Source of the DNA: Candidatus Saccharibacteria bacterium RIFCSPHIGHO2_12_FULL_41_12
GTDB taxonomy: Bacteria > Patescibacteriota > Saccharimonadia > Saccharimonadales > 2-12-FULL-41-12
DNA length: 33,790 nucleotides
Direction: 5' to 3'
Assembly: GCA_001790445.1 (NCBI GenBank)
Contig: MGCQ01000009.1
Coordinates: 1-33,790 of the forward strand
The first letter of the stretch is position 1; every line of letters begins with the position of its first letter. The position numbers and the translations under genes are program-made. Below the pieces are notes generated by a model. That model did not search any database. It was not told where the DNA came from and worked only from the letters and a program-made list of their open reading frames with translations. Below are positions 26,382 to 33,115 of this stretch, in pieces.

Positions 26382-26390
26382 TATAATTCC

Positions 26391-26476
26391 ATCCCATTAG
26401 AGACAGGTATAACTTGATAATTTTGTTGGATTATCGCGATCATACTATTGTTTACTTCCTAGGTCTCTAACGGGAT
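26391..26476 (-). promoter_or_regulatory. Long inverted repeat between rmlC and rmlD
   Basis: In the mRNA sense, ATCCCGTTAGAGAC (26476-26463, inside the last codons of rmlC) pairs with GTCTCTAATGGGAT (26404-26391, just before rmlD). This gives 14 bp with one G-U. The 58-base loop contains the rmlC stop and an inner GATAAT/ATTATC stem. The 3' arm ends in the GGGAT that begins the likely rmlD Shine-Dalgarno. A ribosome finishing rmlC would cover the 5' arm and free the rmlD site, so translational coupling is the proposed role. Confidence 0.6.
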
Positions 26477-27020
26477 CCATCGGGGTTACGTCTTTGAGTA
26501 GTGGGTGGTTAGCATCTTTATCTGAAAAAACAGCTTTTTCTTTGGGAATAGGCCAGTTAATGCCAAGTGTTGAATCAAATAAATTAACAAATGTGTATTT
26601 GGTCTCCGGCGACCAATGAGCGTTTACAAGATATGTGTAGGTAACATTTGACTCTAATGTCTGGTAGCCATTGGCAACACCGCGAGGCACAAAAACGGCT
26701 TTGTCGGGCGTGATCTCAGTAGTGTAGACTTGGCCGAAGCTATCACCGGCTCGCAGATCTACCCAAGCGCCAAAAACGCGCCCATTTGCCACAGAAATAA
26801 ACTTTTCCCAAGGTTCTGCGTGTAGCCCCCGCGTAGCACCAACTTCTTCGTTATATGAAAAGTTATTTTGGACTACTTCAAAGGTGGGGAGCCCCAGTGC
26901 TTCCATCTTGGCTTTTTGATAATTTTCTTTGAACCAACCACGATTATCACCGTGAACAACCAGATCAATCTCAAAAAATCCTGGGATTGGCGTGGTTCTA
27001 ACCGCGAGATCTTTTGGCAT
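26445..27020 (-). CDS. rmlC: dTDP-4-dehydrorhamnose 3,5-epimerase
   Basis: A 191-residue cupin enzyme. Visible: GDNRGWFKENYQ, the catalytic His in TRGLHAEPWEKF, AWVDLRAGDSFG, VFVPRGVANGYQTLE, and DSTLGINWPI, whose Asp would pair with the catalytic His. Length is normal for RmlC. The ATG follows the rmlB stop without any gap. The last codons double as the 5' arm of the inverted repeat upstream of rmlD, which could constrain the C-terminal residues PVRDLG. Confidence 0.94.
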   Translation of the reverse strand: MPKDLAVRTTPIPGFFEIDLVVHGDNRGWFKENYQKAKMEALGLPTFEVVQNNFSYNEEVGATRGLHAEPWEKFISVANGRVFGAWVDLRAGDSFGQVYTTEITPDKAVFVPRGVANGYQTLESNVTYTYLVNAHWSPETKYTFVNLFDSTLGINWPIPKEKAVFSDKDANHPLLKDVTPMDPVRDLGSKQ

Positions 27021-30073: not shown

Positions 30074-30081
30074 ATTTGGAT

Positions 30082-31248
30082 ATGGCAAGAGTAAAGATTT
30101 CTGAATTTAGGGCGAAGAATTTGTTGAGCGGAACGCTCGGCTTCCAGTACACGGGGGTTAGTGTTGATTTGTCTCAAGATAATTCAGGGTTGAATTTAAC
30201 AGAGGGAAAACACGTAGTAAAGGTTGATCAAGCTGTCAAAAAGCGAAATAAACTCGGGCTGGTTAAATTAAATAGAACACCAGGAGAAGTACAAGAGGAT
30301 TTGAAGGATTTTGCCAGCCAAGGCTACAGCGGGGCACTAGTTGAGCCGTTTTTTGAACATGACCGTAAAGATGAGCATTTTGTGGCCATGCAGTTAACAG
30401 ATAAAGGCATCGAATTACAATATTCCCCCCAAGGTGGTGTGGAGATCGAAGAGAACAAAGACAGTCTTCAGAGTTGCTTGTTCTCATCTGGTAGCGACGG
30501 GAGCTCCAACACGACAGATTTAAATACAGCAGTTGTTCAGAAACTATTTGATTGTTTTGAGCAAAATCAAATGACCTATCTTGAGATCAATCCGCTGGTG
30601 ATTCAAGGCACTTTGGTAACACCGCTAGATGCAGCCGTTGAGGTAGATTCTGCGGAGGAATTTGGCACCAAAGACTGGTCTGCCCTAGATTATCGAAGCC
30701 CAAAGAAAGAGCTTCAACCGGCGGAAGCAGCGGTTGAAGAGCTGGCTAGCAAAACTCCGGCTTCACTGGTGTTGAAAGTGTTAAATTCTAACGGCAATCT
30801 ATTTTTGTTACTATCGGGTGGCGGAGCAAGTGTGGTGATTTTGGACGAGATAGCAACGCTTGCCGACAAGGACGCTATTGGCAACTATGGCGAATACAGT
30901 GGCAACCCGAATGAGGAAGATACCTATCTGTACACCAAGCAAGTTATCAAACTCATGTTGGACTCAAAGGCGACCAAAAAAGCACTACTCATCGCAGGGG
31001 GTGTGGCCAACTTTACAGATGTAGCCAAGACTTTCAAAGGGATAATTCGGGCGCTAGATGATAATATTGATCAGCTTAAAGCACAAAATATCCATGTAGT
31101 AGTACGTAGAGGTGGCCCTAATCAGAAACAAGGCCTGGAACTTATGAGAAATTATCTACAGTCCAAAGGTCTCAAATCGCAAGTCTATGGCACGGAAATG
31201 TCGCTTGGCGGAGCCGTAAAGTCGATGGTAAGGGAGTTGGGGCTATGA
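30082..31248 (+). CDS. aclA: ATP-citrate lyase, ATP-grasp/citrate-binding subunit
   Basis: A 388-residue protein that matches, along its whole length, the N-terminal part of ATP-citrate lyase. Visible: HVVKVDQAVKKRNKLGLV (ATP-grasp lysine region), ALVEPFFEHDRKDEHFVAM, MTYLEINPLVI, GGGASVV, NYGEYSGNPNEEDTY, GGVANFTDVAKTFKGI and VRRGGPNQKQGLE. The Asn-Phe-Thr and Arg residues reported to bind citrate in human ACLY are conserved. This subunit would work with the next gene to split citrate, using ATP and CoA, into acetyl-CoA and oxaloacetate. Succinyl-CoA synthetase is excluded by these ACL-specific signatures. The subunit naming differs between organisms. The ATG at 30082 is chosen over TTG 30076 from the promoter spacing. 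Confidence 0.92.
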   Translation: MARVKISEFRAKNLLSGTLGFQYTGVSVDLSQDNSGLNLTEGKHVVKVDQAVKKRNKLGLVKLNRTPGEVQEDLKDFASQGYSGALVEPFFEHDRKDEHFVAMQLTDKGIELQYSPQGGVEIEENKDSLQSCLFSSGSDGSSNTTDLNTAVVQKLFDCFEQNQMTYLEINPLVIQGTLVTPLDAAVEVDSAEEFGTKDWSALDYRSPKKELQPAEAAVEELASKTPASLVLKVLNSNGNLFLLLSGGGASVVILDEIATLADKDAIGNYGEYSGNPNEEDTYLYTKQVIKLMLDSKATKKALLIAGGVANFTDVAKTFKGIIRALDDNIDQLKAQNIHVVVRRGGPNQKQGLELMRNYLQSKGLKSQVYGTEMSLGGAVKSMVRELGL

Positions 31249-31252
31249 ATCA

Positions 31253-31325
31253 CGTTAGAACTCTACAAGAACTGAGAATTATTCCGGATTTTAGCACCAT
31301 TCAATTGCAGTACGGAGTTCTAACG
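31253..31325 (+). promoter_or_regulatory. Intercistronic hairpin between ATP-citrate lyase genes
   Basis: CGTTAGAACTC (31253-31263) and GAGTTCTAACG (31315-31325) form a perfect 11-bp stem across a 51-base loop. Inside the loop, ACTG/CAGT and AATT/AATT could add an inner stem (31271-31280 with 31303-31311). The 5' arm begins 4 bases after the aclA stop, and the 3' arm ends 2 bases before the aclB ATG, so folding brings stop and start together. The sequence resembles the rmlC/rmlD element (GTTAGA and CTAACGGGAT/CTAATGGGAT). Confidence 0.6.
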
Positions 31326-31327
31326 GG

Positions 31328-33115
31328 ATGAATATTGACAGCTTAAAACAGAAAAAAGAGATAGGAGCGGTTGTTTTTGGCAACCACGTGGGGATAATTC
31401 AGTCGACTCTTGATTTTGATTATCTTTCAGGCAAAAAGCGGCCAAGTATCCGCGCTGTAATCGGTGTACAACGAAACTATTTACGATATTTCTGGGGGAG
31501 CAAAGAGATTGCTTTGCCCGGCCATGTCTCACTGGACGAAATGTCAAAAGAGGCAAAAGAAGAAGTAGACTTATTCGCCGTAGCTCAGTCAGGACGGCGA
31601 GCAACTAGTGCCTGCGAGGAAGCTTTAGACCAATTACCTAATGTAGTAGGCGGGATGGTTTTTGCAGAAGGCGTGCCAGAGCGTAGCGCTCTAAAACTTC
31701 GGGACTTGGCACAGAAAAGTGGTGTATTTATTCTAGGACCTGCCAGCGTTGGGTTTTTAGTTTCCGGAGTATGCAAAATTGGGGCAATTGGCGGGACGCT
31801 TGCTTCGCAAATTGCAGGGTCTGGTATAACTAAGGCTGGTTTAACAGCTGTAGTGTCGACGTCTGGCGGCATGACAAATGAAATTATTAATGTGATTGCA
31901 GGATTTGGCGGGAGTGTATCTTTCGCTGGTGCAGTGGGTGGGGAGAGATACCCGATACTGGGGCCAGTTGAGCTAGTTGAACTTGCTATCAATGATGATG
32001 AAACAAAAAGCATCGTATTCTTTGGTGAGCTTGGGGGTAGAGACGAATATGAAATTGCCCAAGTCTACAAAAACTCTGGCACGACTAAGCCATTGATCTG
32101 TTATATCGCTGGGGAAGTTGCAGAAAGTTTTGAGTCAGCCCCGCAGTTTGGACATGCCAAGGCCATGGCACAAAGTGAGCAAGAGACCGCTTCAGCTAAA
32201 AAACAAGCTTTGTCAGAAGCTGGCGCAAAAGTTGCAGATAGTTTTAGCCATTTTGAACAATTAATTAAAAACTCAGTTGCCGGGGAGGCGAAAATGAACA
32301 ATAATAAGATTATGAATGACGACATTTCTGACCTAGAAAATAGAAAGCACGCAACTTTTGTCAATAATGTTTCGTCAGACAGTGGTGGCGACGTAACAAT
32401 TTTAGGTAAACCACTTATAGATTTTATTGAAAACAAATCTTTGAGCCAAGTCGCTTTGTCGATGTTTTTAGGCAAAGAACCAAAATCAGAGGAATTTGCG
32501 AGATTTTTTGATCTAAGTTTACGATTGCTCGTTGATCATGGGCCACAAGTATCGGGTGCAGTGAACACTATGGTTACAGCTAGGGCTGGCAGGGACTTAG
32601 GCAGCGGGCTGGCTTCGGGGCTTTTGACTATCGGGCCAAGATTTGGCGGAGCGATCAACGAGGCTGCGAAGAATTGGCTAGAGGCGGTGTCAAAGAACGA
32701 AAATCCACAGGATTTTGTAGAAAGATTTGCTTCCAAAAAAGTATATATTGCAGGTATCGGACACAAAAAATATCGGGTAGACAGCCCAGATCCAAGAGTG
32801 ACGAAGCTTTTGAGCGAATTTCAATCGGGGGAATATACTAATTTTGCTTTGGAAGTTCAAAAAATTACCACAACAAAAAAAGCCCAACTGATCTTGAACG
32901 TTGATGGACTGATCGCAGCACTTACTCTGGACATGCTAGAAAAAGAAGAAGGCTATTCGCCACAACAGCTAAGTGCGCTGATTGATACGGAATTTTTTAA
33001 TGCCATATTTGTCTATGCCAGGAGCGTTGGGTTTATTGCGCATTTCTTAGATCAAAAACGTCAAGACGAAGGACTTTTCCGCCTCCCTGACGACCAAATC
33101 ACCAGCCTAACTTAG
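31328..33115 (+). CDS. aclB: ATP-citrate lyase, CoA-ligase/citryl-CoA lyase subunit
   Basis: A 595-residue protein matching the C-terminal part of ACLY. A CoA-binding/ligase region comes first: FAEGVPE, ILGPASVGF, VVSTSGGMTNE, and QFGHAKAMAQSEQET with the phospho-His (H276). A citrate-synthase-like lyase domain follows: DHGPQVSGA (H404), ARAGRDLGSG, GIGHKKYRVDSPDPR (H479) and LILNVDGLIAA (D526). All catalytic residues of the human enzyme have counterparts at similar spacing. A linker near 320-350 (MNNNKIMNDDISDLENRK) separates the parts. Translation starts directly after the intercistronic hairpin with no separate strong Shine-Dalgarno. Confidence 0.93.
   Translation: MNIDSLKQKKEIGAVVFGNHVGIIQSTLDFDYLSGKKRPSIRAVIGVQRNYLRYFWGSKEIALPGHVSLDEMSKEAKEEVDLFAVAQSGRRATSACEEALDQLPNVVGGMVFAEGVPERSALKLRDLAQKSGVFILGPASVGFLVSGVCKIGAIGGTLASQIAGSGITKAGLTAVVSTSGGMTNEIINVIAGFGGSVSFAGAVGGERYPILGPVELVELAINDDETKSIVFFGELGGRDEYEIAQVYKNSGTTKPLICYIAGEVAESFESAPQFGHAKAMAQSEQETASAKKQALSEAGAKVADSFSHFEQLIKNSVAGEAKMNNNKIMNDDISDLENRKHATFVNNVSSDSGGDVTILGKPLIDFIENKSLSQVALSMFLGKEPKSEEFARFFDLSLRLLVDHGPQVSGAVNTMVTARAGRDLGSGLASGLLTIGPRFGGAINEAAKNWLEAVSKNENPQDFVERFASKKVYIAGIGHKKYRVDSPDPRVTKLLSEFQSGEYTNFALEVQKITTTKKAQLILNVDGLIAALTLDMLEKEEGYSPQQLSALIDTEFFNAIFVYARSVGFIAHFLDQKRQDEGLFRLPDDQITSLT

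Follow-up and report, generated by a model that had tools for sequence, protein, structure and literature searches.

The hairpin between the ATP-citrate lyase genes of a Saccharibacteria genome as a likely copy of a dispersed, MITE-like mobile element with a GIY-YIG nuclease as its probable driver

In Candidatus Saccharibacteria bacterium RIFCSPHIGHO2_12_FULL_41_12, which has a genome of 0.86 Mb and belongs to an order that includes Saccharibacteria, the two genes for ATP-citrate lyase are separated by a long inverted repeat that reaches from the stop codon of one to the start codon of the other, raising the question of what this hairpin is and how it came to lie there. Within the 33,790 nucleotides of contig MGCQ01000009.1 analyzed here (the window), CGTTAGAACTC (31253-31263) and GAGTTCTAACG (31315-31325) are exact reverse complements, giving 11 perfect base pairs and a 51-nt loop, with the left arm starting 4 nt downstream of the aclA TGA (31246-31248) and the right arm ending 2 nt upstream of the aclB ATG (31328-31330), just as a sequence-only reading of this locus had described. 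That reading had also judged the arrangement unlikely by chance, and indeed none of 20,000 shuffled spacers contained an end-anchored repeat of at least 11 bp and none of 3,000 shuffles contained a repeat of that length anywhere in the spacer. The spacer strand folds stably (minimum free energy -22.8 kcal/mol), with a z of -2.0 against dinucleotide shuffles; the inner stem that had been noted in the loop is weak, and the loop differs between the copies described below. With one mismatch, the outer arms reach further (TCACGTTAGAACTC / GAGTTCTAACGGGA), and a TGAA direct repeat lies on both sides of 31250-31328, the right copy containing aclB start codon sequence, such that the A of the aclB ATG is the last base of the element (31328). 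The acl spacer can itself be read as an open frame, which overlaps each neighboring gene at an ATGA. The features of the locus are listed by position in the window; in plants, the 390-aa and 595-aa subunits go by ACLA and ACLB, respectively, whereas the Chlorobium names are AclB and AclA.

30076 to 31248, plus strand: upstream gene, ATP-citrate lyase ATP-grasp/citrate-binding subunit, 390 aa (PF16114, PF24948)
31245 to 31331, plus strand: 28-codon bridging frame MNHVRTLQELRIIPDFSTIQLQYGVLTG, with ATGA overlaps with the aclA stop and the aclB start (from the sequence)
31246 to 31249, plus strand: left target duplication TGAA, within ATGA (aclA stop and duplicated start)
31250 to 31328, plus strand: 79-bp palindromic element, with the same termini in 84 parsed copies in the order and 61 in the phylum
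31250 to 31263, plus strand: left terminal inverted repeat TCACGTTAGAACTC
31314 to 31317, plus strand: GGAG resembling a Shine-Dalgarno sequence, at the base of the right arm and 10 nt 5' of the aclB ATG
31315 to 31328, plus strand: right terminal inverted repeat GAGTTCTAACGGGA
31329 to 31332, plus strand: right target duplication TGAA, within aclB ATGAA
31328 to 33115, plus strand: downstream gene, ATP-citrate lyase citryl-CoA lyase subunit, 595 aa (PF00285, PF00549)

ATP-citrate lyase gene pairs were located in about 55 relatives, and in most of these the two genes overlap (ATGA or similar) or sit a few bases apart. Among the approximately 55 loci examined, no hairpin was found at the acl junction outside this genome, and in the closest relatives (54% identity; L008/L033) the junction, ...AGATGAAGTTC, is an uninterrupted ATGAA. 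A comparison of rpsE-rplO in 30 genomes revealed an element in this genome and in G004, with the genes overlapping or abutting in the other 28, including G005, which belongs to the same genus as G004. Four loci of other Patescibacteria (L034, L035, L037, and L040) have AT-rich, repeat-like aclA-aclB spacers of 100-160 nt that are unlike the element. The ATP-citrate lyase genes themselves are patchily distributed in Saccharibacteria and related Patescibacteria; 33 of the 156 genera of the order gave any match, many of these being only weak SucD-like matches.

Searching the organism's own genome with the acl spacer, using patterns and a covariance model, recovered the same ends at rpsE-rplO around an unrelated interior, and brought the total in this genome to about five, namely four good copies and one divergent candidate inside rpsB. 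The good copies are:

31250 to 31328 of the window, plus strand: the acl copy
26392 to 26475 of the window, minus strand: second window copy, with TGGA duplications on both sides (matches to models R1 and R2, and sequence)
rpsE-rplO junction
C9:76973: copy before murJ

The second window copy is an insertion at ATGGA, three codons before the probable old end of rmlC. In this region (26387-26480, minus strand) the copy is more decayed than the acl one, RmlC now apparently has element-encoded residues (MDPVRDLGSKQ) as its C-terminus, and the rmlD start follows closely. The rpsB candidate (L169 1498-1577; G000:C1:260319-260408) is a divergent palindrome with similar ends, in frame within the N-terminus of ribosomal protein S2 (MTKVDIDPVKDG...VSNGVDIKKLLESGAHFGH), a placement like that of Rickettsia palindromic elements; as a weak match it was excluded from the statistics. 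A covariance model built from three copies (R1; acl, rpsE-rplO of this genome, and rpsE-rplO of G004) matched 21 of 393 genomes of the order, with up to 10 matches per genome, and a second model built from 42 copies (R2) matched 43 of 380 genomes across Patescibacteria. Half-site counts reached 60 in one genome versus 0-3 in the reversed control, and relatives carry up to about 30 copies per genome. The consensus ends are YCCCGTTAGA...TCTAACGGGR; most copies are 50-145 bp with at least 10 complementary end bases, occur in both orientations, and precede genes as unrelated as rplO, rpoD, ychF, alaS, and dnaG, among others. Among the variants, a 28-bp palindrome away from a start codon (L257 1281-1308; G348:C39) consists of almost only the two ends, L328 holds two copies in a row, and L204, L198, L277, and relatives (f37) share an invariant inner hairpin, AAGTATTTTATCAAAGATAAAATCTGCC, beyond which lies a second hairpin that varies. 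A phage origin was rejected, as exact-pattern matches in IMG/VR were attributable to chance, none scored with the model, and a search with the GIY-YIG protein described below found no relative there. We did not find a published description of the element in the literature searched, which was mostly outside subscription journals.

The anatomy of the element was derived from 84 script-parsed copies of the order, which take the form RTGNN, then TCCCGTTAGA ... TCTAACGGGA, then TGNN. The right triplet is ATG in all 84 copies and the left triplet is ATG in 72 and GTG in 6, giving a share of copies at start codons that is an upper estimate because ATG-flanked copies served to train the models and ATG partly guided the script's choice of orientation; a half-site search independent of ATG gave about 35 of the copies. 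The NN following the left and right start triplets is identical in 70 of 84 copies (36.1 ± 3.5 when permuted, with a maximum of 49 in 20,000 permutations), the match holds for 24 of the 32 right ends with NN other than AA, and the whole TGNN is identical in 68 of 84. Identity between the left and right flanks is 0.87-0.95 across TGNN but falls to 0.4 or less just past it; the preceding base often agrees too because both are usually A. In 78 of 84 copies a frame of at least 60 aa, the host gene, begins at the right ATG; among these host genes, RpoD, YbaB, KhpB, TsaD, DnaG, AlaS, YchF, and FtsX have their usual N-termini. Elsewhere in the phylum, a CCCC/GGGG form has GTG as its right triplet. 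Copies away from start codons were found at L338 (with TTTA duplications), L334, L343, L349, and L182, and include the rmlC copy.

Two copies of 274 bp, both before ychF (L254 in G348 and L268 in G357), encode in the frame of the left start MSPVRTEMQYVYVL...LKRALVLTG, a GIY-YIG domain (PF01541; E-values 5e-16 and 2e-16); these are the only complete GIY-YIG copies with both arms that we saw, at the same gene in one genus. The two frames differ at 8, 4, and 33 sites in codon positions 1, 2, and 3, respectively, and this concentration at third positions shows purifying selection on the GIY-YIG frame. Identity between L254 and L268 is 84% for the element but 67% for the first 600 nt of ychF, where 119 of 200 third positions have changed, and the 274-bp element is thus probably younger than the split of its hosts. 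The GIY-YIG frames begin in arm-encoded MNPVR/MSPVR. A third such frame starts in a left arm just 5' of a short copy at rmlA (L195), and a fourth lies upstream of rmlA in L262, where the arms have decayed. At L195 (G322:C1:215500-218600) the GIY-YIG copy and the short copy stand in tandem at one rmlA start, as would be seen had the duplicated start received a second insertion. The 145-bp copy L307 begins with VNPVRNLSRWYVYLLVSQSNGKWYTGSTKSLQ, a shortened GIY-YIG start (E-value 1.4e-4, just short of the Pfam cut-off), and hence the short copies are most simply deletion derivatives. The encoded domain that would mark a GIY-YIG homing element is present in the long copies only, and the acl copy bears no GIY-YIG trace. 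The GIY-YIG protein, of 93 aa, matches PDB 1zg2 (BH0048), of the UPF0213 / small GIY-YIG family, over residues 9-73 with an E-value of 9e-7; to our knowledge, the 1zg2 protein has not been regarded as part of a mobile palindrome.

We consider it likely that the acl hairpin is a copy of this dispersed, MITE-like mobile element, with the GIY-YIG nuclease as its probable driver. An explanation that shares the mobile-element core and differs in the engine alone is that the palindrome is a MITE moved in trans by an ordinary DDE transposase, with GIY-YIG as a passenger or an unrelated insertion. Inverted ends together with 4-bp duplications, both of which the element has, are typical of DDE elements, and GIY-YIG nucleases are not known to produce duplications of this kind unaided. 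A transposase-bearing copy was sought as an inward-facing half-site pair at 1-3 kb, and there was none among the matches listed; the 274-bp copies with the same ends instead carry GIY-YIG. As the GIY-YIG frames also start within the arms and evolve under purifying selection, and a truncated remnant of the domain sits within a short copy, we regard a DDE engine as unlikely, though by no means far-fetched.

In the order, 64 of 78 copies have an open interior when read from the left RTG (about 13-14 expected from shuffled interiors), and the other five frames of the interior are open in 6-22 copies; when one copy was taken per group without a shared 9-mer, frame 0 was open in 17 of 21 and the other frames in 2-10. 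Of the 64 open frames, 38 end at a right-arm TAA, 22 end at a TGA that overlaps the right ATG, and 4 are fused to the gene. Openness is strongest in Saccharibacteria, as only 19 of 51 frames are open outside the order, where about 7 are expected. In the 102-bp subfamily, differences per codon position are 11.6, 12.0, and 12.3 (of 24), and this equal change indicates that the short-frame peptide is not conserved; a functional leader peptide was rejected, there being no codon-position bias between copies. A Shine-Dalgarno-like word of at least 4 bases precedes the right ATG in 76% of the order's copies, most commonly at a spacing of 10 nt, versus 36% at the left start and 12% at random. Among 42 copies, 96.5% of stem cells are paired, compared with 88.6% after shuffling and 25-49% in slid controls, and 46 double changes were counted versus 11.8 ± 2.7 in shuffled copies, by a statistic that ignores kinship. 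These double changes fall in copies with unrelated interiors, and therefore the pairing is maintained, as RNA or as folded DNA. Compensatory changes of the kind to which the sequence-only reading had looked are thus present in the arms, across copies of the element family.

That reading had proposed that the hairpin couples the two acl subunits and fixes their ratio, a ribosome that ends aclA opening the 5' arm and thereby freeing the aclB start. Placement at a stop and a start codon, the GGAG at the 3' arm, the stable fold, and the open bridging frame all agree with coupling as such, which remains plausible because the frame overlaps both genes. A device made for acl is another matter, as the hairpin occurs at acl in this genome only among the roughly 55 loci compared, is not conserved at orthologous acl junctions as a locus-specific coupling hairpin would be, and is found before unrelated genes; this part of the proposal is largely refuted, and we hold it to be very improbable. 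We give similarly little credence to a conserved, non-mobile family of cis-regulatory RNAs that would serve as a regulon-like leader before many genes. Strong stem covariation, a fixed place at start codons, and frames that stay open without peptide conservation would suit such a family, but it would leave unexplained the co-varying TGNN duplications, the empty sites in relatives, the inverted copies, a gene set without a common theme, and the GIY-YIG borne by long copies. The suggestion that the hairpin is a ligand-binding RNA is likewise unlikely, and a riboswitch or other known RNA was rejected, as the loops are unalike between copies and Rfam gave 0 matches in the window. An integron attC site was rejected by reasoning from the order of the arm motif, which is wrong (GTTAGA outside-in). 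Finally, ribosomal bypassing, in which ribosomes would hop over the hairpin from one ATG to the next, can be virtually dismissed, for while matched sequences do flank the hairpin, the left triplet is GTG in six copies that have ATG on the right, the upstream and downstream genes encode separate proteins, and the NN match is explained by duplication.

If the acl hairpin is a copy of a mobile element, the element would insert at RTGNN, nearly always a start codon, and duplicate TGNN, thereby leaving a start codon at each of its ends. The old start, with its own upstream context, would open a short frame through the element, and the new start, completed by the element's last base, would open the host gene. 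In full-length copies of about 274 bp, the host start codon would begin the GIY-YIG frame, the probable engine of movement, and short copies such as the acl one would be deletion derivatives. In Saccharibacteria, ribosomes may traverse the hairpin and restart at the gene, as suggested by an open frame ending at the right-arm TAA or the ATG-overlapping TGA and by a Shine-Dalgarno-like word in or beside the arm. At acl, insertion would have duplicated the ancestral ATGA junction without breaking it, giving two overlapped junctions joined by the 28-codon frame, such that reinitiation from aclA to aclB could persist, and coupling would be a side effect of insertion. The bias towards start codons may reflect either recognition of RTGNN in this context by the enzyme or the survival of such insertions alone. 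More broadly, we put at about even the chances that these copies represent a phylum-wide class of transposable element that lands at translation start codons and has a tiny GIY-YIG nuclease as its sole enzyme, with a frame that borrows the host start, a right end that rebuilds it, and short derivatives that turn start sites into reinitiation sites; entry into essential genes would then be almost cost-free, since the right end restores the host start.

Like bacterial MITEs, the element is short with terminal inverted repeats, is flanked by short target-site duplications, and is dispersed in multiple copies with empty sites in relatives, its short copies lacking a complete enzyme of their own; it differs in its start-codon target, in its retention of an open bridging frame and a Shine-Dalgarno-like word, and in its likely enzyme, GIY-YIG rather than a DDE transposase. 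Dispersed extragenic palindromes are also formed by the bacterial REP/BIME sequences with their RAYT transposases, but REPs are shorter (20-40 bp) and lack a start-codon target duplication. A review of bacterial MITEs mentions neither start codons, GIY-YIG, nor Patescibacteria (PMC10969869). It treats Rickettsia palindromic elements as the furthest example of genes tolerating palindromes, and these share with the present element a palindrome of about 100-150 bp, an open frame, and tolerance in essential genes (PMC10969869). Rickettsia palindromic elements lie within genes as in-frame fusions with conserved peptides, whereas the element described here lies at start codons, mostly with a separate short frame (fusion to the gene was seen for 4 of 78 frames, all others stopping no later than its start) and, in the 102-bp subfamily, without a conserved encoded peptide. 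In the same phylum, a survey of CPR rRNA genes describes GIY-YIG insertions outside introns and many short (<250 bp) unexplained insertions, with 64 of 66 insertions in Saccharibacteria being short (PMC11270868). These resemble the element in carrying GIY-YIG frames that are not in introns and differ in being located in rRNA genes.

The finding is thus of a common element family at the starts of essential genes across a huge, mostly uncultured group with tiny genomes. Although transposable elements are rarely maintained at the start codons of essential genes, this family apparently survives there through a duplicated start codon and signals that allow translation to continue, which would constitute a new route for selfish DNA to coexist with streamlined genomes. 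It would also affect the annotation of start sites and the expression of many housekeeping genes, and might account for part of the short and GIY-YIG insertions in CPR rRNA genes that have so far lacked an explanation, while offering a case in which the joint action of a GIY-YIG nuclease, inverted repeats, and target duplications can be tested.
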